Positions 8,869 to 62,864 of a DNA stretch of 64,000 nucleotides are shown piece after piece. The translations under genes were made by a program, and so were the position numbers. The notes beneath the pieces are model-generated. The model worked only from the letters and a program-made list of their open reading frames with translations. It did not search any database and was not told the DNA's origin. The DNA comes from Winogradskyella flava (GTDB taxonomy: Bacteria > Bacteroidota > Bacteroidia > Flavobacteriales > Flavobacteriaceae), in contig NZ_JACLCP010000001.1 of NCBI RefSeq assembly GCF_014243395.1, positions 1,116,001-1,180,000 on the forward strand, written 5' to 3'. The number at the start of each line of letters is the position of its first letter. Positions within the stretch are counted from its first letter, which is position 1.

Positions 8869-11013
8869 ATGGCAATTTTAAATAAAATTAGACAGCGTTC
8901 ATTAATCCTAATATTGGTAATAGCATTGGCATTATTTGCATTTGTTATTCAAGGTGTAATTGATAATCCAAATGCATTTTCCAATACACAGGGTGTCGTG
9001 GCTACTGTGAATGGACAGGACATTGATAGAGTTGACTTTCAACAGAAAGTGAAAAACTATCAAGATCGAGTGGGTGGAAGAGTGACCTCTACACAAGCTA
9101 TGAATACAATTTACAGTCAAGAACTCCGCAAGATTGTTATGGAGAATGAGTATGAAGCTTTAGGATTGTCTGTTGAGAAAGATGAAATGCGTAATTTATT
9201 GAAAAACAGCTTTCAGTCTTATCCAGAGTTTCAAGATGAAAACGGAAACTTCGATGTTAATCGTCTAAATGCCTTTATTGTCAATTTGAAAGACCTCAAG
9301 GGTGATACTGCACCATTAGGGAATTTTTTGGTAAACTATGAAAGCTGGGCTAATAACGAACAGACTATTGCTTCTAATGCCATACAGCAAACTTATTATA
9401 ATATGATAAAAGCTGGTGTGGGAGCTACAATTGCAGAAGCTAAAGATGAGTATTTAGCTGATGCTAAAACTGCTGATATTCGTTATGTGCAAGTTCCATA
9501 CACATCTATAGCAGATAGTTTGGTAGAAGTATCAAAGTCTGATGTTAAGGCTTACATGAAAGCGCACGAAGATAAGTTTAAGGCAGACGCTAGTAGGGAA
9601 GTGGTTTATGTTGAGTTTAAGGAAGAAGCTTCTAAAGCAGATGAAGATGATATCATAGCAAGTCTATTGAAACTTAAGACAGATCAACCTTTATATAATG
9701 AAAGTAGTAAAAACATGGATACCATTCCTGGTTTTGATTCTGCGGCAGACATTGAAGAGTTCATTAATTCAAATTCTGATATTAAATACAACGATTCATT
9801 TTTAAGGTCAGCAGAATTATCAGCTACGGTAAAAGATAGTTTGATGAATCTGGAAATAGGTGAATACTATGGTCCATATAAAGATGGTGAGTATTTTAAA
9901 CTTTCCAAAATGATTGCTGTGAAGCAACTACCAGATTCTGTTAAGGTAAGACATATATTAGTGCCTTATATTGGAGGACAAAGAGCTGATGCATCGGTGA
10001 CTAAAACTCCAGAACAAGCAAAAGCAACTGCAGATAGCATCTTAGCAAAAATAAAAAGTGGCACTAAGTTTATGGATTTGTTGGAGTTATCTTCTGATAA
10101 AGTCAGTAATGAAAAGGATGGTGAGATTGAGTTTGCTTACAATGCTGGTATGGCTCCGGAATTTAAAGCCTTTTCTCTTGAAAATAAGGTAGGCGATGTG
10201 GATGTCGTAGGAACGTCTTTTGGATATCACGTTATTGAAATATTAGAACAAAAAAGTGTTAACAATGCATATAAGATTGGCACATTAGCTAGAAAGATAG
10301 AACCATCGGATCAAACACTTCAGGATGTGTTCAATAAAATGTCGAAGTTTGAAATTGCCGCGAAAGATGGGGAATTCACTGAATTGGCTAAAGAGCGAGA
10401 GTTAACCGCAAAACCAATTACATTTAAAGAATTAGATGAGAATATTCCTGGTCTAGGAAGTCAACGTCAAGTAGTACGTTGGGCTTTTGAGGAAGATACT
10501 GATGTTGGAGACTATAAAAACTTCCCTGTTTCTGGTTTTGGATTTATCGTAGCCAAGGTTGTTGAAAAGAATGACGAGGGAATGATGAGTGTTGAAGATG
10601 CTTCTGTTATTGCTGCTCCTGAAATTAGAAAAGAGAAAAAAGCAACAATGATTCGCGAAAAAATTAAGGCAAATACATTAGACGATATTGCCAAGAATCA
10701 AGGTCAAACTGTGAGAACAGCTGCGGCTTTAACTTTAAAAAATACAACATTGTCTGGTGCAGGTGCAGAGCCAAAGGTTATTGGTACAGCATTTGGTTTA
10801 GGTCAAGGGGAATCTTCACAACTTATTGACGGTGAAAAAGGTGTGTATATGATTGAAGTAACTAAGGTAACTGAGGCCACAGAGTTGGATAATTATACAT
10901 CGATAATGAATCGTTTAAATACAACGATTAGAAATTCGGTTCAGACTAAAGTGTACCAAGCTTTAGAAAAAGCTGCAGATATTGAAGATAATAGAGCAAA
11001 AACGGTTTACTAG
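8869..11013 (+). CDS. PpiD/SurA-like periplasmic peptidyl-prolyl isomerase
   Basis: A 714-residue chaperone-type protein. A single N-terminal transmembrane anchor (about residues 12-30) is followed by a SurA_N-like helical domain. A parvulin/PpiC domain at about 355-455 shows VKVRHILVPYIGG and FGYHVIEILE. A long C-terminal region has a second, weaker parvulin-like segment. This architecture (inner membrane anchor, large periplasmic part) is that of PpiD, which helps fold proteins leaving the Sec translocon. The length is somewhat above E. coli PpiD (623). It has its own predicted -7 box, and a bidirectional terminator follows. Confidence 0.9.
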   Translation: MAILNKIRQRSLILILVIALALFAFVIQGVIDNPNAFSNTQGVVATVNGQDIDRVDFQQKVKNYQDRVGGRVTSTQAMNTIYSQELRKIVMENEYEALGLSVEKDEMRNLLKNSFQSYPEFQDENGNFDVNRLNAFIVNLKDLKGDTAPLGNFLVNYESWANNEQTIASNAIQQTYYNMIKAGVGATIAEAKDEYLADAKTADIRYVQVPYTSIADSLVEVSKSDVKAYMKAHEDKFKADASREVVYVEFKEEASKADEDDIIASLLKLKTDQPLYNESSKNMDTIPGFDSAADIEEFINSNSDIKYNDSFLRSAELSATVKDSLMNLEIGEYYGPYKDGEYFKLSKMIAVKQLPDSVKVRHILVPYIGGQRADASVTKTPEQAKATADSILAKIKSGTKFMDLLELSSDKVSNEKDGEIEFAYNAGMAPEFKAFSLENKVGDVDVVGTSFGYHVIEILEQKSVNNAYKIGTLARKIEPSDQTLQDVFNKMSKFEIAAKDGEFTELAKERELTAKPITFKELDENIPGLGSQRQVVRWAFEEDTDVGDYKNFPVSGFGFIVAKVVEKNDEGMMSVEDASVIAAPEIRKEKKATMIREKIKANTLDDIAKNQGQTVRTAAALTLKNTTLSGAGAEPKVIGTAFGLGQGESSQLIDGEKGVYMIEVTKVTEATELDNYTSIMNRLNTTIRNSVQTKVYQALEKAADIEDNRAKTVY

Positions 11014-47901: not shown

Positions 47902-48489
47902 TTACAATCTAAATAAGAATTGAATACTATATTGAAAATGATTATTTGGGTATTCGTCACCGCTATTACTATGGTTCAAAGCAAACTTACCTACACCTTG
48001 AAGTTTTATACCAAATTGTTTTCTAACATTAGGCCAAATCATCATACCACCACCAACATTGATCGAAATGTTGGTATCTTCGATAGTGAAAATACCTAAT
48101 CCAGCGCTTCCATAAAAATCTATCCACTCGCTTCTAGGTAAAATAAATTCACCAAAATAGTATTTTACAGAGGAGTCTAAAGACCAATATGACAGATTTT
48201 CATCAGGAGGTCCCGCAGCATCCAGTCGTTCGTTTTCTTCAAATCCATTAAAGTTAAGAGCGATATCGAGAGAAAATAATTTAGCCCACCTTGTTTCCAT
48301 ACTCAAAGATATAGGAAATCTAAATGCCCAGTCTCCTGGTGAGTTAAAAGGGCCTTTGGTACCAAGAGAATTAACTGTATTGACACCAACTCCAAGTATA
48401 TATTCTCCTCTTTCTATAGATCGATCTGATTGGGCAGACACTGTTACACCTAAAAAAAACACTAATAAAATTATGATATTTTTTTTCAT
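47902..48489 (-). CDS. Outer membrane beta-barrel protein
   Basis: A 195-residue protein beginning with a signal peptide (MKKNIIILLVFFLGVTVSA, mature QSDRS). The remainder alternates strands and turns (GEYILGVGVNTVNSLG, LFSLDIALNFNGF, WSLDSSVKYYFGEF) and ends with a terminal aromatic/Arg strand HFQYSIQFLFRL, as expected for an eight-stranded OmpW/OmpA-like barrel. A longer in-frame start at 48525 would put 12 residues before the signal and overlap the -7 box, so 48489 is chosen. It is downstream of the nucleotidyltransferase gene but seems to have its own promoter. Confidence 0.8.
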   Translation of the reverse strand: MKKNIIILLVFFLGVTVSAQSDRSIERGEYILGVGVNTVNSLGTKGPFNSPGDWAFRFPISLSMETRWAKLFSLDIALNFNGFEENERLDAAGPPDENLSYWSLDSSVKYYFGEFILPRSEWIDFYGSAGLGIFTIEDTNISINVGGGMMIWPNVRKQFGIKLQGVGKFALNHSNSGDEYPNNHFQYSIQFLFRL

Positions 48490-48522
48490 CTGTATATAAC
48501 TAAAAATAAATTTTTTATGCTT

Positions 48523-48530
48523 CAAAAATA
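48523..48530 (-). promoter_or_regulatory. Putative -7 box of the barrel gene
   Basis: On the minus strand this reads TATTTTTG, matching TANNTTTG, 33 bases upstream of the ATG at 48489. It suggests a separate transcript from the kinase/nucleotidyltransferase genes. Confidence 0.4.
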
Positions 48531-48541
48531 GTATTTTCTTG

Positions 48542-49585
48542 TTAAATACGTCTTTTATCTTGCAGAAATATCTTGCAATATAAGTGTTTTCTGTAATTTT
48601 TATTAGATTTTATGAGATATATACGGGTACTAATAAATAGAAAGCTAGATTTTAGACACCTTACTACAATTCGTAACAACCTATATTTCATCGTTATTTT
48701 ATGAGATAAACCTCTGATGCTAACTCTTTCATTGGGTGAATCAAGGGTGAATTCATTAAAGTAAATATTTGCTATTTCAAAGTAGGCCTGACATATTTTT
48801 GACTGGCATAAACGAGACATCATTACCTCATGTTTGTATGTCTTTAGTGAAATAACATCGTAAAGCGATTTAAAATGTACTCCATTATAATAGTAACCTT
48901 TGTCATTTACTTGCCAACTTAAAATTTGATGTTTGTTTAAGTGCAATGAACTAGGAATAGCAACTCCATCTGAAAAGATTTTATTATTAAGCACTGTTTT
49001 TGCATCCAATAACGACCTGTAAGGTATGTTCAAGAGTTCTTCATGCAGTTCTATTGCTGCCAGTTCTTTAGATGATATTAGCCTGTCAAGATGCCTATAG
49101 TTGATTTTTTCATAAGCAAATCCAAACGTTTTATCATAGCCACTTTCATTAATTAGTGCGAATGCATGATTAAGCCTTGATTTTTCAATTAAGATGTCAA
49201 TATCTCCAACCATTCGCTCTCCATTATTATCGTAACATCCGCTCACTAGAAGTGCAGCACCCTTTAAAAATACATGTTCGATGCTATGCTTATTGAGCAG
49301 CTTGGACAATGTATGTACTTGTTTAATGATAGACTTATTTCTATTTCTATTTATCGTTGTAATTTCGTCTAGATACGTATTTAAGTCATCTGGTAGTACG
49401 TGAAGAAGTTTTCTTGCTTTCAACCTACAATAAATTGCAGGCAATACTAAATGCTTACTGGCCTCTTTGACTATAGAATCCCAATTAAATCCTGGCCTGT
49501 TTAGGCGTTTTTCTAATATATTATTTTGAGTTTCAAAACTTAGAATATGTGCGATATGATGATATGTATCGGCTAGGTTGGCCAT
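48542..49585 (-). CDS. Nucleotidyltransferase of the NTP_transf_5 type
   Basis: A 347-residue protein of the uncharacterised nucleotidyltransferase family (PF14907-like). Key motifs are VFLKGAALL (Lys108, Gly109) and the metal-binding pair GDIDILI (Asp128 and Asp130), followed by the AIELHEELLNIPYRSLL segment typical of the family. A basic C-terminal region (LIKSNKNYRKHLYCKIFLQDKRR) ends it. Relatives occur in RiPP clusters, including some lasso-peptide ones, with HPr-kinase-like partners; their reaction is generally unknown. It lies 22 bases downstream of the kinase-like gene and is almost certainly co-transcribed with it and the small peptide gene. Confidence 0.82.
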   Translation of the reverse strand: MANLADTYHHIAHILSFETQNNILEKRLNRPGFNWDSIVKEASKHLVLPAIYCRLKARKLLHVLPDDLNTYLDEITTINRNRNKSIIKQVHTLSKLLNKHSIEHVFLKGAALLVSGCYDNNGERMVGDIDILIEKSRLNHAFALINESGYDKTFGFAYEKINYRHLDRLISSKELAAIELHEELLNIPYRSLLDAKTVLNNKIFSDGVAIPSSLHLNKHQILSWQVNDKGYYYNGVHFKSLYDVISLKTYKHEVMMSRLCQSKICQAYFEIANIYFNEFTLDSPNERVSIRGLSHKITMKYRLLRIVVRCLKSSFLFISTRIYLIKSNKNYRKHLYCKIFLQDKRRI

Positions 49586-49607
49586 AATTTAACTAATATA
49601 CATAATG

Positions 49608-50738
49608 TTAGTTTCTGAGTTCATCAAATAGAACAGATAACCTATTAATTACACTTTTGGTATCACTGTAAGTAAGCTGATATAATTCTGATTGTTCTAG
49701 CCAATCAATAAACTGTTTTGCGTAAGCTTGGTTTGGAGATAACCATGAATCTGGAATTAATGTCTCTAGTACCTTTTTTATTGAAATACTATCTAATGTA
49801 GTTTCCGATTCATTTTTGTAATTGACCATAACTATTGCCTTGCAAGGATAATGATCCTTTTTTGGCTTTTCGAAAGGTACATGTTTTATAAGTCCTTTAG
49901 ATTTATTGAAATATGTTGTGGGCAAATTTTCAAAACCATCGATTATGTTTTTCAACCTATCAAAAGCGCCCTGTTTTATGGATAGAGCAGAATGATTGCG
50001 ATAGATATTTAAGTCTCTTGAAAGCATTGGTGAGACATCATCAGCGACTAATTCATAACCATTAGCGGCTAATAAGGCGCATAATGTGCTCTTTCCTTTT
50101 CCAGACTTGCCAATAATAAGAATTGAATTCCTGCCATCAGCTATAGTAGATCCATGAAAAGTACCTAGCCAATCTGTTTCAGCTTTATTGTTTGCCAATG
50201 ATATTAGTTCCATGAAAAATTTACCCTGTAATAAATGGTAGTCTCTCTTAGGGATAGAGGTGATAAGCGTTTCATTTATAAACAGACATAAAAAGTCTTC
50301 TTCCAAGTATATATCAAATATAACTTCGGCTTTAGTATTATTTTTCACTTTGAGGTGAGCGATAGAAGGATGGATGGTTTTCTCTACCAGTTTGGAATCA
50401 AAGAAAATTTCTATTTTTTGATTCTTAATTTTATATTGTCTACAAATATTCCGAAATGAAGCTTTAAACTTTGGGCTATTTTTTTTAGTCGGCTTAGATA
50501 TTAAGTTGCAAGCTTGCAAATAATTCTCAATATTCCGCGAAATCACACTAGCATCAGATTTACTATCGATCATAGCTAGTTTAGAGCTAAATTCATCAAA
50601 AGAATTTGAGTCAAAATAAACATCTAAAATCATCTTAAATTCAGACTCTACAACACTGTAATTGTTAGATGTGGAGTACCATAATACCCAATAAGGACTA
50701 AACAACCTTTTATATGTTGGTGCCAAGTCGTTATTCAA
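49608..50738 (-). CDS. HPr-kinase-like protein with possible PqqD-like N-domain
   Basis: A 376-residue protein. Its central part matches the HprK C-terminal kinase fold: Walker A IIGKSGKGKST (209-218), then the family's LAANGYELVADDVSP with Asp233-Asp234. Residues about 15-80 have the rhythm of a PqqD-like winged helix (YSVVESEFKMILDVYF, then an Asp/Ser-rich turn, VISRNIENYLQACNLI), the fold that binds leader peptides in RiPP systems. That assignment is an inference. No HPr or other PTS gene is near, so a carbon-control role is unlikely. It is 18 bases downstream of a 52-residue peptide gene and 22 bases upstream of the nucleotidyltransferase. Confidence 0.8.
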   Translation of the reverse strand: MNNDLAPTYKRLFSPYWVLWYSTSNNYSVVESEFKMILDVYFDSNSFDEFSSKLAMIDSKSDASVISRNIENYLQACNLISKPTKKNSPKFKASFRNICRQYKIKNQKIEIFFDSKLVEKTIHPSIAHLKVKNNTKAEVIFDIYLEEDFLCLFINETLITSIPKRDYHLLQGKFFMELISLANNKAETDWLGTFHGSTIADGRNSILIIGKSGKGKSTLCALLAANGYELVADDVSPMLSRDLNIYRNHSALSIKQGAFDRLKNIIDGFENLPTTYFNKSKGLIKHVPFEKPKKDHYPCKAIVMVNYKNESETTLDSISIKKVLETLIPDSWLSPNQAYAKQFIDWLEQSELYQLTYSDTKSVINRLSVLFDELRN

Positions 50739-50756
50739 AACACTTTGTAAAAGTAA

Positions 50757-50915
50757 TTAGTCGAAAGGATTCCCTCCTGGATCTGGAGAGGTCTGTTGAG
50801 CTTTAAGCGGATTTAAAATCACGAATGTCCCTACAGCGGTTAGCGCCGCATACTTCCCCATTTTTTTAATGGCATCCTTACGTGTGATCTTATCTATATT
50901 GTTTTCTTTCTTCAT
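50757..50915 (-). CDS. 52-residue exported peptide, possible substrate of the adjacent kinase
   Basis: A short frame from the ATG at 50915 to the TAA at 50757. The N-terminal part is basic (MKKENNIDKITRKDAIKKMG), with TRKDAIKKMG resembling a Tat-like or leader segment. A hydrophobic stretch (YAALTAVGTFVIL, residues 22-34) and a possible cleavage site after LKA (residue 39) follow. The remainder is a 13-residue tail, QQTSPDPGGNPFD, rich in Pro and Gly and containing Thr42 and Ser43 as possible phosphate acceptors. A -7 box lies just upstream and the kinase gene follows 18 bases later. It is too short for default gene calling. Coding status is supported by position, promoter and the secretion-type layout, not by homology I can check. 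Confidence 0.65.
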   Translation of the reverse strand: MKKENNIDKITRKDAIKKMGKYAALTAVGTFVILNPLKAQQTSPDPGGNPFD

Positions 50916-50936
50916 GGCGGTAGCCTAAATTTGGTT

Positions 50937-50944
50937 CAAAAATA
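50937..50944 (-). promoter_or_regulatory. Putative -7 box of the peptide-kinase-nucleotidyltransferase operon
   Basis: On the minus strand this reads TATTTTTG, matching TANNTTTG, 22 bases upstream of the peptide ATG. No TTG is found at standard spacing. Confidence 0.4.
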
Positions 50945-51194: not shown

Positions 51195-54100
51195 CTATTT
51201 TAAAATTACTTTTTGCGTTCTAGTGGCTTCACTATTCTGTAATTGTACGATGTAAACGCCAGAAGTCAGATTTGATACATCAATACTGTGTCTCGTTGCA
51301 TTAGAGCTTAATTGAGATGTAGTCATTATTCTACCCTGAATATCTATAACTTGTAGTACGGTGTTAGACTCTAATTGCCCCTTGACTACTAGTTGTTTCG
51401 GGTTTGCAATAGCGAAAATTTCTAATCCGTTTAAAATATCATCTGCTACTCCAAGTTGCTCACGCGAGAAGTGTATATAAAAACGACCTGTATCTGCTAA
51501 GGCAGTACTTGGTGTTATATTGTAATCTCCAGCTCTTAAATCAGTAAAAGTATTGTTTAAATTATCTTCCAAAAATATCGAAACATCTTCAGGTATATTA
51601 GTATCTGCTATAGAGAATTTGATTTGTTCACCTTGCAATGCGTTAACACCTATCGGAATAATAATATTATCTAAGGCATCGTAATCTACAGATTGTACAG
51701 CCATATCTTTATTCAAGTTATCTTCAACCAAATGGGAGTAGATGGCGAAATCAGGGGTCTGCTCATTAAAAATGACAGCATCATATCCAGCATCCATACC
51801 TAAACTTGCATTTTCGTTGAAATATAAATCTGTTCTAAATTTTTTCTCATTACCTGAAAGCTCTAAATTTAAATATGCATTAATAGGCACGACCTCAGCG
51901 TCTCTACCAAGAATAAAATCATCTGAAGTGCCAATAGAGCGCATAGCGGGTGTGAAAGAAATTGTACCACCACCAGCTGCGGAAGCTACTAAAAATCCTT
52001 GTCCTGGTGTAATTACTGCTCCCATATTGGCATCTGAGTAGCCTTGATTCCAGACTGTAAACCCACTTGTTAAATCACCTGGATAGCCATAAACACCAGA
52101 GCTACCAGGGTCAAACAAACTATTATTAGCATCTAAGAAATCACTAAGGCTTAAATAGGACGGATAAGGATTTCCTATAAGATTAAAAATACTTCCTGTA
52201 CCAACAGTAATAGGAACCGAAACATTACCTGTTTCTACATCACCAACAAAAGTAAACAGAGAGCCACCAGGAGTCGTAGAGGCTGTTCTGTAGCCAATTC
52301 CTGGCTCTACAGGATCTGTAAGATTAGAATCATTATAATTTACATAGGCATTTTCATTATTGTCAAATGGACCAAACAAAAATGACGGTACAGTATTAAT
52401 GGTACCTGTTGGAATAACAGGATTAGCATTTGCTAAAGCTTGGAAATCTTGGTTCGAATTTGTAACAGGCGCTGCAATTAAATCATTCTCACCAGTTGTA
52501 GCACCAGGTATGCTTTGAAATTGGTTAACATGTCTATTATAAGTGACGTCACCAGAAGAAGTACCATTCACAATTAAACTAGAGTAGGTGTCTGAAGTTG
52601 AAGTAAGTTCTAGGCTGCCATTATTTACTAAATCACCATTGATTGTTAGTGATTGAGCTACAGTAATTATAGTTTGCGCACCAACGTTTACAATAAAATC
52701 ATTAATTTGAACATTCCCTATTACACTGTAGGTACCATCAATTACTAGTGCATCTTGAGCTCCAGTTGTAGCATCTGGTTCTATATTATCTTTCCATCCA
52801 CCTATATCTGTGTAAACTAAACCATCAAATTCGCTAACTATTCTAAAATTGTCAAACCCTGAATAACCGTCTGTACGATTATTTCTTAATCTTACTTGTA
52901 GTCCTACAGTAGTATTACCATCTGGGACATCAATTTTTACTCTACCTTGATCATCGTTGATTGATCCGTTACCGTCAAAAACGGTTACCCAACCACCACT
53001 AGCGCTGCCATTGATAAACAAACGATATTGTATGTCATTGGCGTTGTTATTGTAACCCACAACTTGCCAATCAAATTCTATTCTTACCTCATTATAAACA
53101 CTAATATCAATATTAGCAAAAGTCAAGACTGCAAAGGGATTGTTGACATCATTTAAATCATTTTCACCAAATATCTCATCAGAGAATAAAGGGCTATCTA
53201 TTGGAGCCGCATCTACTAGAGCAATTTCACCAAAATATCCTATAGTATCACCCCAATCTGCAACAGTTCCGAATGGTGGAATAGAAGTGGTGTATGTCCA
53301 ATTCGTGGCAGTATCAAAATTTTGTCCAGCAATACTAATGAGCGGACCATTAATATCAAACACTGTACTACTGCCTGATAAGGAAGGTGAAGTTGAAGTG
53401 GCTATAAGATTTCTATTGGCCTCTTCTGCGGTAAAAACAACATTGTCTAAAGTCGCGAAACCGTTTACCATATCATAAGTTTCACCTACAATACTACTTG
53501 CCCCAAAGGTTGTCGTCACATCAATTCCAGTAATATTTGCATCCAAATCTCTGTTAAGATTAGCATCTACAGCTTCAATCGTGGGGTATGGGACCATAAC
53601 TTCGGATTGGTTGCCATCAGTTGGTTGTTGCACAAATTGAAATTGATCAGCTGTAACTTCGATTCTATTATCATCTCCTGCAATAGAAGTTTCAGCAGCA
53701 CCTGCATCACCCGAAGCAAATAAAGAACTTCCAGTAGCTGGAGTAGTAACTGAATTAACTGTCAATTGTATTTGCTCGTTATCTGTAACAGTCGATTTAA
53801 ATGTTGCAAATACAAAAAAGTCTTTTGTGTTATCATCAGGGGCAATTAAATTTAATCCGGTAAAAGTTGTGAGATCTGTTACACTAGTAACTTCGGCTAC
53901 ATTTACAAAGCCATCAAAAATTGCCAGTGCCGCAATATTCTCACTGTTTTCTACATCAAAAGTAATTGAGTTTAACGTTGTAGCGTCAGTATCAGAATCA
54001 GGTGAAGATGCTCCGCCATCTCTAATTGTAAAAGCGCCTATAGCTATAGAATTAGGAGATGGAAATGCACTTAATCCAGAAGTCGCATTAAAAGCAGTAT

Positions 54101-54791
54101 AGTCGATATTGGTACTAGGAACTCCAGGAAAAGAAGCAACAATAATATCTGATTCTATGCTATTAGTTGAAGTTGAAGTAACCGTACCTACAAGTCTAAG
54201 ACCAGGAGATGGTACGGCAGGAGATATATCCCAAGCATTATTTTGTATTACACGTAACCAACCACCATTAGTAGTTGCGCCCCATGCATAAAGCCTAAAA
54301 GTTATGGTGCCTGATACTCCTGATAAGACTCCTAGACCAGGTAAATTAAAATTAGTAGTCGTAAGAGATGCCAGTGTTTGAGACCCACTTGGAAGTGCTA
54401 TACCCGCAGAAGTAAAGCCATCTAAACTATAAAAAATTTGCCATTCACTTGGTCCATTTCCGTTTCTTCTCAGGCGAATATCTAATTCGTCCAAAGCAAT
54501 TTCAAAAGTTGTATTTGCAGTAACTGACCATTCGATGTAATCATTATTGGCTTCGGCTGTCGCTTGGTCACCACCAATTGTCCATCCATTAGAAGTAAAA
54601 TTTGCGTTACCTGAATTGCTAAGCGCTATACCAGTGCCACGAGTAAATCCAATTGAAGACACAGTTGAAATGTTGTCAGTGGCAGTAGGCCCAACAATAT
54701 TAGGTCGATCTATGGTTGTAAAAGTCTGACTAAATCCGAGTCCTACCGTTAATACAGTGGCAATTAACAAGAAAATGTAATTTTTTTTCAT
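51195..54791 (-). CDS. Large secreted protein with T9SS type A sorting domain
   Basis: A 1198-residue surface or secreted protein. The signal peptide MKKNYIFLLIATVLTVGLGF is cleaved near SQ; the chosen ATG at 54791 begins it, while an in-frame ATG at 54896 would prepend 35 residues including Cys clusters. The body is made of beta-rich Asn/Thr/Gly segments, including an FDTATNWTY-type jelly-roll region near residue 500 and a parallel-beta-like stretch (VIDGTYSVIGNVQINDFIV) near 680. The C-terminus (LEIFAIANPKQLVVKGQLES ... SGVYIVQLQ ... KVILK) is a type A sorting domain, which directs export by the type IX system and is removed. No enzyme motif is seen; adhesion or matrix binding is possible. 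Confidence 0.88.
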   Translation of the reverse strand: MKKNYIFLLIATVLTVGLGFSQTFTTIDRPNIVGPTATDNISTVSSIGFTRGTGIALSNSGNANFTSNGWTIGGDQATAEANNDYIEWSVTANTTFEIALDELDIRLRRNGNGPSEWQIFYSLDGFTSAGIALPSGSQTLASLTTTNFNLPGLGVLSGVSGTITFRLYAWGATTNGGWLRVIQNNAWDISPAVPSPGLRLVGTVTSTSTNSIESDIIVASFPGVPSTNIDYTAFNATSGLSAFPSPNSIAIGAFTIRDGGASSPDSDTDATTLNSITFDVENSENIAALAIFDGFVNVAEVTSVTDLTTFTGLNLIAPDDNTKDFFVFATFKSTVTDNEQIQLTVNSVTTPATGSSLFASGDAGAAETSIAGDDNRIEVTADQFQFVQQPTDGNQSEVMVPYPTIEAVDANLNRDLDANITGIDVTTTFGASSIVGETYDMVNGFATLDNVVFTAEEANRNLIATSTSPSLSGSSTVFDINGPLISIAGQNFDTATNWTYTTSIPPFGTVADWGDTIGYFGEIALVDAAPIDSPLFSDEIFGENDLNDVNNPFAVLTFANIDISVYNEVRIEFDWQVVGYNNNANDIQYRLFINGSASGGWVTVFDGNGSINDDQGRVKIDVPDGNTTVGLQVRLRNNRTDGYSGFDNFRIVSEFDGLVYTDIGGWKDNIEPDATTGAQDALVIDGTYSVIGNVQINDFIVNVGAQTIITVAQSLTINGDLVNNGSLELTSTSDTYSSLIVNGTSSGDVTYNRHVNQFQSIPGATTGENDLIAAPVTNSNQDFQALANANPVIPTGTINTVPSFLFGPFDNNENAYVNYNDSNLTDPVEPGIGYRTASTTPGGSLFTFVGDVETGNVSVPITVGTGSIFNLIGNPYPSYLSLSDFLDANNSLFDPGSSGVYGYPGDLTSGFTVWNQGYSDANMGAVITPGQGFLVASAAGGGTISFTPAMRSIGTSDDFILGRDAEVVPINAYLNLELSGNEKKFRTDLYFNENASLGMDAGYDAVIFNEQTPDFAIYSHLVEDNLNKDMAVQSVDYDALDNIIIPIGVNALQGEQIKFSIADTNIPEDVSIFLEDNLNNTFTDLRAGDYNITPSTALADTGRFYIHFSREQLGVADDILNGLEIFAIANPKQLVVKGQLESNTVLQVIDIQGRIMTTSQLSSNATRHSIDVSNLTSGVYIVQLQNSEATRTQKVILK

Positions 54792-54867
54792 TTTTTTAAA
54801 TTTTAAATTTAAAAAACACTTACATATCTTATTGATAAGTAAGGTTTTAAGCAAATTGAGGGTTTGG

Positions 54868-54875
54868 CAAAGGTA
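54868..54875 (-). promoter_or_regulatory. Putative -7 box of the T9SS substrate gene
   Basis: On the minus strand this reads TACCTTTG, an exact TANNTTTG match, about 77 bases upstream of the ATG at 54791. It lies downstream of the alternative ATG at 54896, so the shorter protein is favoured. Confidence 0.45.
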
Positions 54876-55014
54876 ACAAAATTTGGGAAATATCATATTT
54901 TTTATCGGAAATACCTAGGCAAATATGAATTAGTTGGAATGATTTTAAAATTTCCAATATTAAGAGACTTTAGTTTAAAGTTGACTTTCAATTATAAAGT
55001 CTTCAGATTTGTTT

Positions 55015-55022: not shown

Positions 55023-55080
55023 CAAAATGATTGACCAATTGCTAAAATTGGTTAATAAACCTAAATCAAGTAATTTTAAA

Positions 55081-56196
55081 ATGAGTAAAGTTGCATTTAT
55101 CACAGGGGTAACAGGTCAGGATGGCGCTTACCTCAGTGAATTTTTGTTAAAGAAAGGTTATAGGGTACATGGCTTAAAGCGTCGTTCCTCACTCTTCAAT
55201 ACGGATAGGATAGATCATTTGTATCAGGACCCTCATGTAGATAATCGCAATTTTCATCTCCATTATGGAGATATGACAGATAGCACAAATCTTATCAGAT
55301 TGATTAAGGAAATTCAGCCTGATGAAATATATAACCTTGCAGCAATGAGTCACGTGGCAGTATCATTTGAAATGCCAGAATATACAGGTAATGCCGATGG
55401 ATTGGGTACGCTCAGAATATTGGACGCAGTTCGTTTACTTGGACTTGAGAAAAAGACAAGGATATATCAAGCCTCAACATCCGAATTATATGGTAAGGTA
55501 CAAGAAGTTCCTCAGACAGAAACTACGCCATTCTACCCGCGTTCACCTTATGCAGTTGCTAAAATGTATGCGTATTGGATTACTGTTAATTATAGAGAAG
55601 CTTATGGTATGTATGCTTGTAATGGTATATTATTTAATCATGAGTCGCCAATACGCGGTGAAACTTTTGTCACAAGAAAAATCACAAGGGCCGTTTCAAG
55701 AATTGCATTAGGGCTGCAAGACAAATTCTATTTAGGCAATTTAGATGCTCAGCGTGATTGGGGACATGCTAAAGATTATGTACGTATGATGTGGATGATA
55801 TTACAGGCAGAGGAAGCTGAAGACTGGGTCATAGCTACAGGGAAAACAACTACTGTGCGCGATTTTGTGCGCATGAGCTTTGCACAGATTGGTGTAGACT
55901 TAGAGTTTAAAGGCGAGGGGGAAACAGAAAAAGCTTATGTCTTAAAATGCAATAATCCTAATTACCAATTAGAAACAGGCAAAGAAGTCTTGGCCGTAGA
56001 TCCAAGATATTTTAGGCCTACTGAAGTAGATTTACTTATTGGTGATGCTTCAAAAGCAAAAGAAAAATTAGGCTGGGAATGCAAGTATGATTTGCAAGAT
56101 TTGATAACAGATATGATGCAAAGCGACTTAAAGTTAATGAAAGAACAGCAGTACCTTGAAGATGGAGGCTATAAAACCATGAATTATTTTGAGTAA
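55081..56196 (+). CDS. gmd: GDP-mannose 4,6-dehydratase
   Basis: A 371-residue SDR-superfamily enzyme converting GDP-mannose to GDP-4-keto-6-deoxymannose, the precursor of GDP-fucose and related deoxysugars. The N-terminus [20 protein letters not shown] has the NADP-binding GxxGxx[28 protein letters not shown] with the catalytic Thr/Ser-Glu, [10 protein letters not shown] (YxxxK) and [15 protein letters not shown] are diagnostic. An upstream in-frame ATG (55027) adds 18 unlike residues and sits at the predicted transcription start, so it is rejected. It heads the polysaccharide operon and overlaps fcl. Confidence 0.96.
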
Positions 56197-57151
56197 AATA
56201 ATAAATAAAGATTCAAAAATATATATAGCAGGTCATCGAGGTATGGTTGGTTCTGCTATTTGGCGCGCTTTAGATTCAGAAGGTTATAGTAATTTAATTG
56301 GAAAAACGAGTAAGGAGTTAGATCTTAGAAATCAATTGGCGGTCAATAGATTTCTTAACACTGAACAACCAGATGTTATTATAAGCGCTGCAGCGAGAGT
56401 TGGAGGTATTTTGGCTAACAATGACAACCCATATCCATTTCTAATGGAAAACCTTCAAATTCAAAATAACCTGATTGACGGCGCACATAAAGGAGAAGTG
56501 GCTAAGTTTATTTTTTTGGGAAGTTCATGTATTTATCCAAAATACGCACCGCAACCTTTAAAGGAGGAATATCTTTTAACAGATAGTCTGGAGCCAACTA
56601 ATCAATGGTATGCTCTAGCCAAGATTGCAGGCGTAAAAGCGTGTGAAGCGATAAGAAAACAATACGGAAAGGATTTTGTGAGTCTAATGCCTACAAATTT
56701 ATATGGACCAAATGATAACTTTGATTTAAATAATTCTCATGTATTACCGGCAATGTTAAGGAAATTTCACGAGGCCAAGGAAAATGATCATTCACCAGTA
56801 ACACTGTGGGGAAGTGGCACTCCAATGCGTGAATTTTTGCATGTTGATGATTTAGCTCAAGCAGCATTGTTTGCCTTAGAAAATGTCTTGCCTGACCATC
56901 TTTATAATGTTGGTACTGGTACTGATTTGACTATTAAAGAATTGGCAAATGCAATTCAAAATGTTGTTGGTCATAATGGCGGTGTGGTTTGGGATACTAG
57001 TAAACCAGACGGGACACCAAGAAAGCTAATGGACAGCTCAAAATTGCAAGCTATAGGTTGGCAGCCAACAATTGGTTTAAAACAAGGTATTGCCAAGACC
57101 TACCAATGGTATTTAAATAGTACGGAAATTAAAATAAATAACCCTATATGA
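56189..57151 (+). CDS. fcl: GDP-L-fucose synthase
   Basis: A 320-residue SDR epimerase/reductase turning GDP-4-keto-6-deoxymannose into GDP-L-fucose, the step after Gmd. It has the N-terminal [31 protein letters not shown] with catalytic Ser, and YALAKIAG (YxxxK), followed by [12 protein letters not shown] and [14 protein letters not shown]. Translation begins at TTG 56189 inside the last codons of gmd. The next gene overlaps its stop by four bases. Confidence 0.95.
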
Positions 57152-58104
57152 AAAACTTTGCCCTAATAGGTGCTTCAGGTTATATCGCACCAAGACATAT
57201 GCGTGCCATTAAGGATACTGGAAATCGATTAATAGCTGCATTAGATCCATATGATGGTATTGGCATCATGGATAGTCATTTTCCTGAGGCTAGTTTTTTT
57301 ACGGAGTTCGAGCGCTTTGACCGCTTTGTAGATAAATGGCATCGTGATAGCGGAAATAAAATTGAGTATGTCTCCATCTGTTCGCCAAACTATTTACACG
57401 ACTCACATATAAGGTTTGCTTTAAAAAATGGTGCAGATGCCATTTGTGAAAAACCGCTAGTTTTAAATCCTTGGAATATTGATCAATTAAGACTAATTGA
57501 AAAGGAAACAGGGCAAAAGATTTATAATATACTTCAATTAAGATTACATGATTCAATTATCGCATTAAAAAAAAGAATTGCAAAAGAACTCAAAGAGAAT
57601 CCAAATAAAGTTTACGATATAGATTTGACCTATCTCACTTCTAGAGGTAAATGGTATTTTGTATCGTGGAAAGGGGACCAAACGAAATCGGGTGGTATTG
57701 CTTCTAATATAGGTGTTCACTTTTTTGATATGTTGTGTTGGATTTTTGGTGAAGTAGAAGAGAATAAAGTACATTTAAAAACTGCTGACGCCAATGCAGG
57801 TTATTTAAAGTTAAAAAATGCCAATGTAAAATGGTTTTTATCTGTTAATTACGATTATATCCCTAATGAAATCAAAGATAAAGGGTTAACAACCTTTAGA
57901 TCTATAACGGTTAATGGAGAAGCGATTGAGTTTAGCGGTGGATTTACGGAATTGCATACACGCAGCTATGAGCAGATTATTAAGGGCAATGGCTTTGGTT
58001 TAGATGAAGCCTATGGCTCTATAAATACAGTGTCTCAAATAAGAAATTTAGAACCGTTGGGTCTAGTTGGAGATTATCATCCGTTTTGTAAAAAGATAAA
58101 ATAA
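57148..58104 (+). CDS. wbpB: UDP-GlcNAc-uronate 3-dehydrogenase (WbpB/WlbA type)
   Basis: A 318-residue Gfo/Idh/MocA oxidoreductase. The sequence [40 protein letters not shown] and [13 protein letters not shown] is very close in pattern to WbpB/WlbA, which oxidises C3 of UDP-N-acetylglucosaminuronic acid as the first step toward 2,3-diacetamido-uronic acids of O-antigens. The catalytic Lys lies in the EKP motif and the C-terminal half has [15 protein letters not shown]. The partner dehydrogenase and aminotransferase (WbpA, WbpE) are not in the window and may lie beyond 64000. Confidence 0.92.
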
Positions 58105-58676
58105 TGGCAGACCATTTTGTACATGAATCTAGTTATGTTGATGAGAATGTTAGCATAGGAGACAATACCAAGGTTTGGCATTTTTCGCATATACTGTCAA
58201 ATACAACTATTGGTAAAAATTGTTCTTTTGGACAAAATTGTGTGGTTGGACCAAGAGTTAATATTGGAAATGGTGTCAAGGTACAAAACAATATCTCCAT
58301 TTATGAAGGTGTAGAAATAGAAGACGATGTGTTTTTGGGCCCCTCTATGGTATTTACAAACGTTATCAATCCCAGAAGTTTTATTGTGAGACGAGAAGAA
58401 TTTAAAAAAACACTTCTCAAGCGTGGCTGCTCTGTAGGCGCTAATACGACTATTGTATGTGGGAACACTATTGGTGCATATGCCTTTATTGGTGCAGGTA
58501 CAGTAGTGACTAAAGACGTACCGAATTACGCTTTGATTGTCGGTAATCCATCTCGTCAAATCGGATGGGTCAGTAAGGCAGGTCATAAATTGATTTTTGA
58601 CGAAAAGGGTATTGCTACTTGCAAGGTATCGCAAGAAACTTACATGTTGGAAAACGGCAAGGTGAGAACACTATAA
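58104..58676 (+). CDS. wbpD: UDP-3-amino-GlcNAc-uronate N-acetyltransferase (WbpD/WlbB type)
   Basis: A 190-residue left-handed beta-helix acetyltransferase, the length of WbpD. Hexapeptide repeats run through most of the protein ([67 protein letters not shown]). It N-acetylates the 3-amino group made by the WbpB/WbpE pair, using acetyl-CoA. The catalytic His is probably in VWHFSH. It overlaps wbpB by one base, confirming operon structure. Confidence 0.92.
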
Positions 58677-58693
58677 TTACCACTGGTAGACCA

Positions 58694-59971
58694 TTGAAAA
58701 ATACTCTTAAATTCATACAACGCTTAAAGGCATCTTTATATGTGCGCAATGTAGCCACCTTGGCCGGGGGAACAACCTTTGCCCAGGCCATATCTGTGTT
58801 TACGGCACCCATTTTATACCGTATTTATTCTAAGGTAGATTACGGGACTTTAGGATTGTACATGGCTATTGTGGGTGTTGTTGGGGTGTTTTCAACATTT
58901 CAATATTTTCAACCTATTTTGTTAGAAAAAAATGATGATGATGCCAAGAAAGTGATGTGGCTAAATCGCCTTATTAATTTGGTAACTACATTAGCTGTAT
59001 TGCTGTTAGTGCTTTTATTTGGTGACAATCTTTCGAGATTATTAGGAAATGAAAAGTTAATGCCATGGCTTTATTTAGCGCCGATATCGATATTTTTTTC
59101 GGGACAAGGTCAGATATTTGGCATATGGGCCAACAGAAAGAAGAAATACAAAATATTATCGTTTAATACCATATTAACGGCAGTATTGGTGCCTTTGGTT
59201 TCTATAACTATTGGGCTATATAACAACGGGCCATTGGGTTTGTTTCTGGGCTTGTTGATAAGCCATGTGGTGCCACCAATTGTGTTACTTATTAGGTTAA
59301 CAAAGTATGATGATCTAGGACTAAAGTATTTTGATTGGGAGGTTATTAAAGGAAAAGCCAAAGAGCACAAGAACTTTCCAAGTTACACCCTGCCTTCTGC
59401 TTTCATTAATAGACTGACCAATCAGTTACCAGTATTTATGTTGAGTGCTTATGCTGGGCCAGCGGTAGTTGGTGTCTATAATCTCTGTGTACGTATGTTG
59501 GGCTTGCCCATTAATTTAATTGGTAATGCCATCACTAGGGTGTTTCAGCAAAAGGCTGTGGAAGAATACAATGAAAGAGGTGATTTTAAAAATGTGTTTG
59601 TTAAAACTTTTAAAACACTGAGCCTAATTGCCATACCGGGCTTGATTCTTATTTTGATATTAGGGCCAAAGCTTTTTTCTTTTGTCTTTGGTCCTGAATG
59701 GCGAGAAAGCGGCGTTTTTGCTCAAATTTTAATCATTATGTTTGCTTTAAAGCTTATAATATCACCTCTATCATATGCATTTTATATTAAGAAGAAACTC
59801 AAAGAAGATATGTTCTTACATTTGTATATTTTGGTTTCTATGGTGATTATATTTTTAATTGGCTTTAATACGACTGATAATCACAAGAATGTAATACTTT
59901 TATACGCGATTAATTATTGTTTAATATATTCGGTCTATTTAACAAGGGCTTATAATTTGTCTAAAAAATAA
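58694..59971 (+). CDS. Polysaccharide flippase, Wzx-like
   Basis: A 425-residue multi-pass membrane protein of the MOP superfamily. It begins with a basic cytoplasmic segment (KNTLKFIQRLKASLYVRNVA) and then the Wzx-like LAGGTTFAQAISVFTAPIL, with about 12 helices. It would move lipid-linked repeat units across the inner membrane. The TTG at 58694 is preferred, 17 bases after the wbpD stop. An in-frame TTG at 58619 would overlap wbpD by 58 bases and add 25 polar residues. No polymerase (Wzy) or ligase is visible in the window. Confidence 0.85.
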   Translation: MKNTLKFIQRLKASLYVRNVATLAGGTTFAQAISVFTAPILYRIYSKVDYGTLGLYMAIVGVVGVFSTFQYFQPILLEKNDDDAKKVMWLNRLINLVTTLAVLLLVLLFGDNLSRLLGNEKLMPWLYLAPISIFFSGQGQIFGIWANRKKKYKILSFNTILTAVLVPLVSITIGLYNNGPLGLFLGLLISHVVPPIVLLIRLTKYDDLGLKYFDWEVIKGKAKEHKNFPSYTLPSAFINRLTNQLPVFMLSAYAGPAVVGVYNLCVRMLGLPINLIGNAITRVFQQKAVEEYNERGDFKNVFVKTFKTLSLIAIPGLILILILGPKLFSFVFGPEWRESGVFAQILIIMFALKLIISPLSYAFYIKKKLKEDMFLHLYILVSMVIIFLIGFNTTDNHKNVILLYAINYCLIYSVYLTRAYNLSKK

Positions 59972-59977
59972 TTATTA

Positions 59978-60628
59978 GTGAAAATCTCAATATTTGAAAG
60001 GTATCTATATCTAATTACACCAAACTTTTTGTTAAGAAAACTTCTACCGTTTTTTGATAAATTTGATTTTTTAAAGAAGACCAAAAAGACCCAAACTCCT
60101 ATAACATTTGATTTGTGGTATAATCAAAAAGTTAAAGGACATTGCAAGCAGGCCTATTGGCCTGTTCATTCAACCAGTAGAGTATTTAATCCAAAAAACA
60201 TCTATTGTGGTATTGAAACTAGCCCTGGATACAGTCAAGGCAACTATATTCAGGCAATTGGTAAAATTTATATAGGCGATTATACTCAAATTGCACCAAA
60301 CGTAGGTATTATTAGCGCGAACCATGAATTAGAAGATAATAGAAAACACATAGTAAAAGATGTAAAGATAGGGAAGTACTGTTGGATTGGTTTTGGGGCT
60401 GTTATTCTACCAGGAGTAGAATTAGGAGATTACACAATCGTAGGTGCTGGCGCTATTGTGACAAAAAGCTTCAAAGAAGGTTATTGTGTTTTAGCTGGGA
60501 ATCCTGCAAAATTGGTTAAACGTCTAAATAAAGCGGAATGTATTTATCATAAAAGTGACAATGAATACAATGGGTATATAAAAAATACTGACTTCGAAGA
60601 TTTTAGAAAGAAAAATTTAAATGTCTAA
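59978..60628 (+). CDS. Hexapeptide-repeat acyltransferase
   Basis: A 216-residue protein with a basic N-terminal region (residues 1-60) and a C-terminal left-handed beta-helix with hexapeptide repeats (IGDYTQIAPNVGII, HELEDNRKHIVKDVKIGKYCWIG, LPGVELGDYTIVGAGAIVTK). The motif SANHELED resembles the catalytic His loop of maltose/galactoside O-acetyltransferases. It probably O-acetylates a sugar of the repeat unit. It starts with GTG six bases after the flippase and overlaps hisH2 by one base. Confidence 0.85.
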   Translation: MKISIFERYLYLITPNFLLRKLLPFFDKFDFLKKTKKTQTPITFDLWYNQKVKGHCKQAYWPVHSTSRVFNPKNIYCGIETSPGYSQGNYIQAIGKIYIGDYTQIAPNVGIISANHELEDNRKHIVKDVKIGKYCWIGFGAVILPGVELGDYTIVGAGAIVTKSFKEGYCVLAGNPAKLVKRLNKAECIYHKSDNEYNGYIKNTDFEDFRKKNLNV

Positions 60629-61248
60629 TGTTGGTGATTATAGACTACAAAGTAGGTAATTTAACCTCGGTTCAAAAGATGTTAAAGAAAGTAGGTTGCA
60701 GTGATGCTGTAATTTCTTCTGACCCAGAGGTTATTGTAAAAGCCTCAAAGCTCGTCTTACCAGGTGTAGGGCATTTTGATTATGGCATGAAACAGCTAAA
60801 ATTATCTGGTTTAATTGATGTGCTTAACACACAAGTTGTAGAACATAAAATCCCAATTTTGGGTATTTGTTTGGGAGCGCAGTTATTGACCCGAGGTAGT
60901 GAAGAGGGCAGTGAAAAAGGCTTAGGCTGGATAGAGGCAGACACCATTTTGTTTGATCAAAGCAAATTTGACCAAAAGTTAAAAATCCCGCACATGGGCT
61001 GGAGTAATGTTAATTTTAATAGCGATATACCCTTGTTTAAGGATATGCCTCTAGCATCTCGCTTTTATTTTGTTCATAAATATCATATGGTTTGTGATGA
61101 AGGAGCGGACAATTTAGTTTCGGCAAAATATGGCTATAAATTTGCAGCTGGAATAGGTAAAAACAATATTATAGGCGTTCAGTTCCACCCCGAAAAAAGT
61201 CATAAATTTGGTATGCAACTTATGCGTAATTTTATAACATATTATTAA
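60628..61248 (+). CDS. hisH: HisH-like glutamine amidotransferase of the acetamidino system
   Basis: A 206-residue class I glutaminase that releases ammonia for a HisF-like partner. Catalytic residues are intact: Cys81 in GICLGAQLL, His187 and Glu189 in QFHPEKSH. The oxyanion region PGVGHFDYGM is present. Given wbpB, wbpD, a HisF paralogue and WbpG in the same operon, it is HisH2 of the surface-polysaccharide pathway (compare P. aeruginosa O5), not histidine biosynthesis. Unusually it is separated from hisF2 by a sulfotransferase gene. Confidence 0.88.
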   Translation: MLVIIDYKVGNLTSVQKMLKKVGCSDAVISSDPEVIVKASKLVLPGVGHFDYGMKQLKLSGLIDVLNTQVVEHKIPILGICLGAQLLTRGSEEGSEKGLGWIEADTILFDQSKFDQKLKIPHMGWSNVNFNSDIPLFKDMPLASRFYFVHKYHMVCDEGADNLVSAKYGYKFAAGIGKNNIIGVQFHPEKSHKFGMQLMRNFITYY

Positions 61249-61250
61249 TT

Positions 61251-62081
61251 TTGAAAGGCAGACTACCTGATTTTATGATTATAGGCGCCATGAAAAGTGG
61301 CACCACTAGCTTACATGACTATCTTGGTAAGCATCCTCAGATATTTACATCCAAAGTAAAAGAGATTCATTATTTTGCTAATGATAAGTATCAGAAATAC
61401 GATTTAGAATGGTACAAAAATCACTTTATATCCGAAAAGAAAATAGTGGGCACTTCACCACAAAACTATACGAAGTGCCATAACAAATATTATCAAGACA
61501 TACCAGAGCGCATTAAGAAGCATATTCCGGATATTAAGCTTATTTATATCTTAAGAGATCCGATAGAACGCTACAAATCTCACATACTCGAGAATTATTA
61601 CGGCGAACCTAAAAAAGATATGGTGTATAATATCCAAACCAATCAATATGAAAAAACAGGATTGTATCATTACCAGCTTCAAGAATATTTGAAGTACTTT
61701 GATTTAAGCCAAATTCATATCTTAACCTTAGAAGATTTAAGGGACAATAGATTAGTTACCTTAAATAAAGTGTTTACATTTTTAGGGGTACAAAATATAG
61801 AAGATGAAAGGCTGTTTGATTTTGTGAGCAATGACCATAGAGCAAAGGCACTGCCCTACAATGTAATAAGTACTATACCTTATAGAGCCTTACATAAGTT
61901 TTCTCCAAATTTTGCAAAAAAAATAGTATCAAGTGAGTTGCTCAGAAAAATTATTTTTAAAAAAGGGAAAAAGAGACATTTAAAACCCCAAGAGATTGAA
62001 AGGCTTAAAGTGGTATATAGTGAAGATAAAAAAGCCCTAGAGCAACTCACGGGTTTGTCTTTTGACAAATGGAATTTATAA
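61251..62081 (+). CDS. Sulfotransferase
   Basis: A 276-residue PAPS-dependent sulfotransferase. The 5'-phosphosulfate loop is FMIIGAMKSGTTSLHDYL (residues 8-25) and the 3'-phosphate site includes IYILRDPIERYKSHI near 100. A histidine/acid pair follows (EIHYFAND). The family includes carbohydrate sulfotransferases related to heparan enzymes. In a marine-type polysaccharide operon it likely sulfates a sugar of the glycan. Translation begins at TTG 61251, two bases after hisH2, and ends nine bases before hisF2. Confidence 0.85.
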   Translation: MKGRLPDFMIIGAMKSGTTSLHDYLGKHPQIFTSKVKEIHYFANDKYQKYDLEWYKNHFISEKKIVGTSPQNYTKCHNKYYQDIPERIKKHIPDIKLIYILRDPIERYKSHILENYYGEPKKDMVYNIQTNQYEKTGLYHYQLQEYLKYFDLSQIHILTLEDLRDNRLVTLNKVFTFLGVQNIEDERLFDFVSNDHRAKALPYNVISTIPYRALHKFSPNFAKKIVSSELLRKIIFKKGKKRHLKPQEIERLKVVYSEDKKALEQLTGLSFDKWNL

Positions 62082-62090
62082 CTAATTAAG

Positions 62091-62864
62091 ATGAGACGTA
62101 TCCGTGTTATTCCCATATTATTGATACAAAAAGGTGGTTTGGTAAAATCCATAAACTTTAAAAACCACAATTATATTGGAGATCCTATAAATGCGGTGAA
62201 GATTTTTAACGATAAGGAAGTTGATGAAATCGCCATTATTGATATTTCTGCGACAAAGGAAAACCGTGAACCTAATATTTCTCAAATCAGTGAAATAGCT
62301 GGAGAAGCTTTTATGCCACTTTCTTACGGAGGAGGAATTACGACCTTAAATCAAGTAAAGACAATTTTGTATGAAGGTGCAGAAAAGGTCATACTGAACA
62401 CAAGTGCGTTGGATAACTTAAGGCTGGTGACACAAATTGCGGAACAATTTGGAAGTCAGAGCGCAGTGGTTTCTATTGATGTAAAAAAAGATTGGTTAGG
62501 TAAGTATAGGGTATATAGAAATAATGGCAAAAAAAAGACTAGTTTTGCACCCGAAACCTTTGCAAAAAAAGTGGAGGAAGCTGGTGCAGGTGAGATTATC
62601 TTAATGTCTATTGATAGAGATGGGACTTACAAAGGATTCGATTTAGAACTAATGAAAAATGTTAGTGATGCCGTAAATATACCTGTTGTGGCCGTTGGTG
62701 GCGCATCTCAACTCAATGATTTTGTTGAGGTTGTTAATGTAGGTGGTGCATCCGCTGTTGCCGCAGGGAGCTTGTTTGTATATGCATCTGAGCAAAGAGG
62801 TGTAATGATCAATTACCCAAAGCAAGCACGATTAATGAATGCTATTTTTGAAAAAATAATATGA
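62091..62864 (+). CDS. hisF: HisF paralogue, HisF2/AglZ type acetamidino protein
   Basis: A 257-residue (beta/alpha)8-barrel of the HisF family. It aligns with HisF throughout: RVIPILLIQKGGLVKSINF at the start, IGDPINAVKIFNDKEVDEI, MPLSYGGGITTLNQV, SAVVSIDVKKD and SIDRDGTYKGFDLEL, then VPVVAVGGAS-like NIPVVAVGGASQL. The Asp at position 11 that acts as catalytic acid in imidazoleglycerol-phosphate synthase is Leu11. This fits HisF2/AglZ paralogues, which pass ammonia from HisH2 to the WbpG-type amidotransferase. Its stop overlaps the next gene by four bases. Confidence 0.9.
   Translation: MRRIRVIPILLIQKGGLVKSINFKNHNYIGDPINAVKIFNDKEVDEIAIIDISATKENREPNISQISEIAGEAFMPLSYGGGITTLNQVKTILYEGAEKVILNTSALDNLRLVTQIAEQFGSQSAVVSIDVKKDWLGKYRVYRNNGKKKTSFAPETFAKKVEEAGAGEIILMSIDRDGTYKGFDLELMKNVSDAVNIPVVAVGGASQLNDFVEVVNVGGASAVAAGSLFVYASEQRGVMINYPKQARLMNAIFEKII

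Follow-up and report, generated by a model that had tools for sequence, protein, structure and literature searches.

A gene for a 52-residue peptide was found in the Winogradskyella flava genome beside genes for an HprK-like kinase, an NTP_transf_5 nucleotidyltransferase and a cargo protein of the type IX secretion system (T9SS). The arrangement is probably best explained by a RiPP-like peptide that the kinase and the nucleotidyltransferase modify, and that partners the T9SS cargo at the cell envelope. As judged by comparison with related loci, the peptide gene is genuine, the peptide has a conserved Ser, the catalytic residues of both enzymes are intact, and kinase, peptide and cargo co-occur. 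All coordinates refer to the window, the whole 64,000-nt stretch of DNA that was analysed.

The peptide (50757-50915), the kinase (376 aa, TTG start; 49608-50738) and the nucleotidyltransferase (347 aa; 48542-49585) are encoded on the minus strand, with gaps of 18 nt between the first and second genes and 22 nt between the second and third; an earlier, sequence-only reading had placed the three ORFs at exactly these positions. The set is larger than the three genes of that reading. A T9SS type A cargo protein of 1233 aa is encoded upstream of the peptide (51195-54896, minus strand), and downstream lies a gene for a 207-aa protein (47902-48525, minus strand) with a signal-peptide-like start, which resembles an outer-membrane β-barrel by eye and, at thresholds up to E 1, matches neither Pfam nor NCBIfam. 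The four genes from cargo to nucleotidyltransferase were present together in 30/30 same-genus and sister loci (L001 and L032-L060; 7-16 kb read). The 207-aa gene adjoins the nucleotidyltransferase gene in 28/30 of them; L060 lacks it and L059 has a far-off copy. L001, from Xanthomarina spongicola (Flavobacteriaceae), carries the set; it corresponds to G319 in the genome sample, and L100, which duplicates it, was not counted. The set had also been called a minimal system, a description ill suited to one that comes with a dedicated class of T9SS cargo and whose kinase may carry its own recognition domain.

The peptide gene lies directly upstream of the kinase gene in all 30 of these loci. Two outcomes had been named that would count against it, namely the lack of a homologous peptide upstream of related kinase genes and the lack of codon-level constraint, and neither was observed. 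Over 406 same-genus pairs the mean pN of the peptide was 0.106 and the mean pS 0.574, which indicates purifying selection and rules out a chance ORF. The window peptide is 75-92% identical to its same-genus relatives and 56% identical to a divergent second copy (L060); the corresponding values are 43-59% and 31% for the kinase (alignment of 29/31 sequences, leaving out L051, interrupted by an in-frame stop codon, and L052, for which the match was in two parts), and 36-54% for the nucleotidyltransferase among the 23/31 sequences given to the aligner. Searches of Pfam and NCBIfam with 37 peptide members returned nothing credible (best E 0.03-0.06).

The predicted -7 promoter box, TATTTTTG (50937-50944, minus strand), was also borne out: it lies 29 nt before the peptide ATG, and the motif TAnnTTTG is retained 28-32 nt before the ATG in 24/31 same-genus peptide genes. 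A short hairpin, GGC-TACC-GCC (50916-50925, minus strand), abuts the start codon. The same GGC-loop-GCC form with a 3-bp stem, once as GGT/ACC, precedes the ATG in 24/31 same-genus genes, a frequency counted without a shuffle control, and could serve translation control or be a binding site.

The window peptide has a basic start, a leader and hydrophobic stretch (ITRKDAIKKMGKYAALTAVGTFVILNP), Ser43 and the tail PDPGGNPFD; the conserved Pro/Gly tail proposed earlier was found in its relatives. The first ~40 residues are the better conserved part (pN 0.074, against 0.211 for the remainder, over the same pairs), and the core that follows them is 8-13 residues long in 61/79 peptides and longer in the rest. 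Near the start of this otherwise variable core, the seventh residue after an L-x-P motif is Ser in 77/79 peptides (Ser43 in the window), Thr in L060 and Tyr in L238, and it is the natural candidate for the acceptor of a modification. Phe or Trp occurs among the last three residues in 64/79 peptides, and Cys in 0/79. These are the features of a RiPP-type precursor: a short gene, a conserved leader and a more variable core, beside putative modifying enzymes. The better conservation of the leader also fits a role without modification, and a hydrophobic leader is unusual for a cytosolic enzyme to bind, which counts against the RiPP reading. L110 (10180-11956) and L240 (648) encode variant peptides whose Pro/Gly tail is long or repeated; one variant has two core-like repeats.

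Export of the peptide with cleavage is plausible from its sequence. A small-x-small motif, [AST]-x-[AS], precedes the core in 64/79 peptides (the window peptide reads AQQ), and cleavage at this site would put Ser at position 2 of the mature product. Tat export by the strict motif was rejected: the second Arg is missing in all 74 peptides that show the motif, the residue after the conserved Arg being Lys in 69, Asn in 3, Gln in 1 and Glu in 1.

The catalytic part of the kinase was assigned earlier to an HprK-like protein by its Walker A and DD motifs. The motifs stand, together with a His-Lys-Asp-Asp tetrad (H195, K216, D233, D234) that is identical in 53/53 full-length relatives (ORFs >330 aa, which leaves out L116, split, as well as L125 and L130), and the H195-K216-D233 spacing of 21 and 17 is presumably that of HprK. 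The assignment by family models is weak. The window kinase scored 22.2 bits with PF07475, below the cut-off of 33.3; one relative (L112) passed at 34.5, and most HprK family scores across the kinases scanned were below the cut-off. The best-matching curated family was HPr-rel-A (TIGR04352, HprK_rel_A), which matched 29/29 members and gave the window kinase E 2e-14 and 53.2 bits against a cut-off of 200; in the phylum sample this model exceeded its cut-off in 0/148 genomes. The partners of HPr-rel-A kinases are PqqD and a nucleotidyltransferase; the window kinase differs in its low score and in that its PqqD-like part would be fused rather than separate. A PDB sequence search with the kinase profile placed HPr kinases at the top of its weak matches (3tqf, E 0.0003). 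In the L116 genome the kinase ORF is in two parts (9233-10367).

With such a catalytic domain, the protein could be an ordinary HPr kinase/phosphorylase-like regulator next to an unrelated short ORF. This is highly improbable: the peptide is conserved and co-inherited with the kinase, the HPr(Ser) kinase model gave the window protein 22.9 bits against a cut-off of 240, and the kinase occurs in just 29/299 genomes of the family.

The first ~80 residues of the kinase (residues 1-79; 50502-50738, minus strand) are likely, though not settled, to form an RRE/PqqD-like domain, a candidate for recognition of the leader. Three strands followed by three helices were predicted for residues 9-76 in both AlphaFold runs (pLDDT 36.6 and 61.5), of which the whole-kinase run on two sequences (pLDDT 36.6) served only for the secondary structure of the N-terminus. 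The order βββααα defines RREs according to PMC12710340, while the introduction of PMC7470986 gives the opposite order of elements. In hhalign, a profile of the N-terminal region (53 sequences) aligned end to end over 69 columns with a set of 25 PqqD sequences (25/26, locus L141 being left out), with a score of 19.1, P 0.0026 and a probability of only 11%, i.e. a weak, collinear match. None of 300 column-shuffled controls reached 19.1 (best 18.2); the reversed profile scored 9.3, and the best window of the nucleotidyltransferase or the rest of the kinase 12.7. Resemblance to RRE/PqqD (PF05402) thus consists of the predicted order of elements and this collinear match, whereas a family-level match and a significant structural match are both lacking: Pfam scans of 39 kinases gave no PqqD among the matches listed, down to ~E 0.02 in one table, and Foldseek with the N-terminal model (pLDDT 61.5) gave 11 matches at E up to 10, none significant. 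Among these 11 were four TbiB1-leader complexes and two matches to a sactipeptide enzyme, which is a hint only. A PqqD (PF05402) search of the whole W. flava genome at E 0.001 gave no match, in line with the earlier remark that no lasso set is present.

The nucleotidyltransferase assignment held firmly, with 104.8 bits for PF14907 (NTP_transf_5) against a gathering cut-off of 31.2. Its D-x-D and distal E (D128, D130, E179) are intact in 45/45 sequences, and the pairing of peptide, kinase and nucleotidyltransferase that had been predicted proved recurrent. The gene adjoins that of the kinase in 30/30 genus and sister loci and in 23/27 further loci (L101-L125, L130, L135); the four exceptions are L120, which ends at a contig end, and L121, L124 and L125, which have no adjoining nucleotidyltransferase gene. 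In L121, an ORF beside the kinase (1270-2157) resembles a sugar-phosphate nucleotidyltransferase by eye and is a possible replacement for the NTP_transf_5 gene.

The closest precedent is the tailoring of lasso peptides. PadeK and ThcoK are described as phosphorylating a Ser of the precursor by means of His-Lys-Asp-Asp, and for pseudomycoidin PsmK is described as phosphorylating and PsmN as adding one or two hexoses to the phospho-Ser, or possibly nucleotidylating it (PMC9266682). As in those systems, a kinase with the HKDD tetrad and a nucleotidyltransferase are encoded beside a small precursor with Ser as the likely acceptor. The window set differs in its hydrophobic leader, in the possible recognition domain within the kinase and in its location at a T9SS cargo locus. 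The label of lasso peptide itself fails on the C-terminal Ser acceptor, since the conserved Ser of the window peptide lies near the start of the core.

Because the window kinase and nucleotidyltransferase resemble PsmK and PsmN, the same two steps are proposed for them. The peptide would be a RiPP-like precursor in which the first ~40 residues form the leader together with an export or membrane signal and the rest forms the core. The PqqD/RRE-like domain at the N-terminus of the kinase would grip the leader, the kinase would phosphorylate the conserved Ser at the core start, and the nucleotidyltransferase would then place a nucleotidyl or hexose group on that phosphate, as reported for pseudomycoidin. 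The product would pass the inner membrane and act at the envelope with its T9SS cargo partner, whose gene normally lies directly upstream. Recognition of the leader by the N-terminal domain, modification by either enzyme, export and the way in which peptide and cargo interact are inferred from the comparisons described here.

The distribution of the genes points to a system inherited as a unit. Among 60 relatives searched, 29 had the kinase, and every one of these belongs to the genus of the window (29/37 genus genomes, its own included); the peptide was found in 0/8 of the same-genus genomes without the kinase. Two of these eight genomes are under 90% complete, and they may form one clade, so that the absence may represent a single loss. 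In a sample of 299 evenly drawn genomes of the family, the kinase (profile search, E up to 1e-10) occurred in 29, the peptide in 32 and both in 28, compared with 3.1 expected if they were independent. The only genome with the kinase alone (G107) is 82% complete and has it at a contig start; in the four genomes with the peptide alone (G195, G333, G341 and G353; 82-92% complete) a closer search found no kinase. The peptide was matched in 4/296 genomes of the phylum sample with a narrower profile and in 7/246 of the order sample with a wider one, so the system appears largely confined to Flavobacteriaceae. Matches outside the family (G755, which also has the kinase, and G760) come from assemblies 62-66% complete and may be contamination. 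Viral contigs gave no confirmed relatives. Assignment to a defence system was rejected, the PADLOC matches being weak ones alone (best AriA, E 0.003).

Comparison of the genomes also showed that cargo and peptide are paired and that such pairs have been duplicated at a distance from the one kinase. In G440, each of six peptide genes adjoins a cargo gene (gaps of 13-116 nt), but the only kinase gene lies with a nucleotidyltransferase gene on a different contig, where the 19-kb stretch around them gave no match to the peptide. The pattern recurs in G854, with six peptides and a single kinase on a different contig; five of the six lie <=25 nt from a cargo gene and the sixth, behind another peptide, at 532 nt. 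In G010 two of three peptides are not on the kinase contig, and in G182, G208 and G126 kinase and peptide are apart. With several peptides per kinase in trans, a single set of enzymes seems to act on more than one substrate, which is what a modification system would do.

These pairs without an adjacent kinase (six of six in G440, five of six in G854) also suit a peptide that is never modified, acting as a small exported or membrane helper of the T9SS cargo (a chaperone, plug or anchor) while the enzymes modify another target of that pathway. The greater conservation of the leader than of the core is in its favour as well. Such a helper is nevertheless unlikely, if worth keeping in mind, because the presence and absence of the peptide track those of the kinase almost perfectly, and because one Ser is retained so widely at the start of a variable core.

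The modified peptide of the preferred reading is tied to one class of cargo. The cargo protein of the window, the one member examined in this respect, has a C-terminal type A sorting domain (Por_Secre_tail, PF18962/TIGR04183); no further model of Pfam or NCBIfam exceeded its cut-off. In contrast to type A cargo in general, it falls in a subfamily of its own, which is defined by residues 690-1165 (51402-52829, minus strand) and occurs together with kinase and peptide. A gene with this region lies upstream of the peptide on the same strand within <=500 nt in 63/79 cases and within <=2500 nt in 72/79. The seven peptides without one in range comprise four at contig ends (L229, L241, L242, L243) and three (L226, L235, L237) with no cargo gene within the stretch examined.

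A profile of residues 690-1165 (A7), built from peptide-bearing loci, matched at >200 bits in 34/299 genomes of the family, including all 29 with the kinase; 130 further family genomes gave only weaker matches. Since the profile derives from such loci, the unbiased comparison is that of genomes which contributed no row to it: 14/14 with the kinase had a match at >200 bits, versus 4/269 without it (G125, G180, G333 and G350), several of the 14 sharing a genus with row-giving genomes. That A7 merely describes a generic region preceding T9SS sorting domains was rejected, the scores falling into two groups, >207 bits (partial genes included) and <=~159. G180 is a true exception to the co-occurrence: this 99% complete genome encodes a cargo-family protein (268 bits) and neither kinase nor peptide. 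G011 has 11 A7 matches, nine of them strong, but one peptide, and such genomes with many cargo copies and few peptides indicate that the pairing is not one-to-one everywhere.

The link of the system with a single class of cargo suggests a role in displaying, maturing or attaching T9SS proteins. In a more specific form, which we regard as doubtful, the modified peptide would itself be part of the maturation or attachment of this cargo class, a RiPP serving as a structural handle. Ser, at position 2 once the signal is cleaved off, would bear a phospho-sugar or a nucleotidyl moiety. This Ser-modified tag would hold the cargo or be joined to it, either replacing the usual lipopolysaccharide sugar, the known linker of which has a seryl group, or acting by way of it.

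HprK-like and nucleotidyltransferase-type enzymes have so far been described as tailoring a few lasso peptides (PMC9266682). In the present case, two enzymes of these kinds are co-inherited with a peptide that belongs to no known family, as well as with a single class of surface protein that is secreted. Should the peptide prove to be modified, the system would join RiPP chemistry with type IX secretion, suggest a substrate for an uncharacterised family of nucleotidyltransferases and offer a very small setting for testing the action of PsmN-type enzymes. We found no report of this peptide or locus, or of a link between RiPPs and type IX secretion, in a literature search whose scope mostly excluded subscription journals.

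A divergent set of polysaccharide genes beside the cargo gene (55027-62864) encodes a GDP-mannose dehydratase, an epimerase, an oxidoreductase, hexapeptide acyltransferases, a flippase family member, a sulfotransferase and a pair made up of an amidotransferase and a HisF-like protein. Its position would suit a scheme in which the two enzymes make a phosphorylated sugar linker for a surface polysaccharide or for A-LPS-type anchoring of the cargo, with the peptide as an accessory or regulator. To our knowledge, the characterised HprK-like enzymes act on proteins or peptides, which counts against such a linker, on the whole an improbable reading; the lasso case is an example of action on peptides (PMC9266682). 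For Porphyromonas gingivalis, T9SS cargo is described as tethered via a sugar with a seryl group (PMC13086638), in keeping with the linker. Matches to the genes of this set, on the other hand, were found in 10/78 stretches only, a lower bound because the stretches reach only ~8-10 kb on each side. Seven of these 10 are gmd or fcl at >=74% identity, and one is wbpB/wbpD-like. As a separate observation, a 119-aa ORF that looks GIY-YIG-like by eye is repeated five times in tandem, at a spacing of ~391 nt, in L226 (3580-5503).
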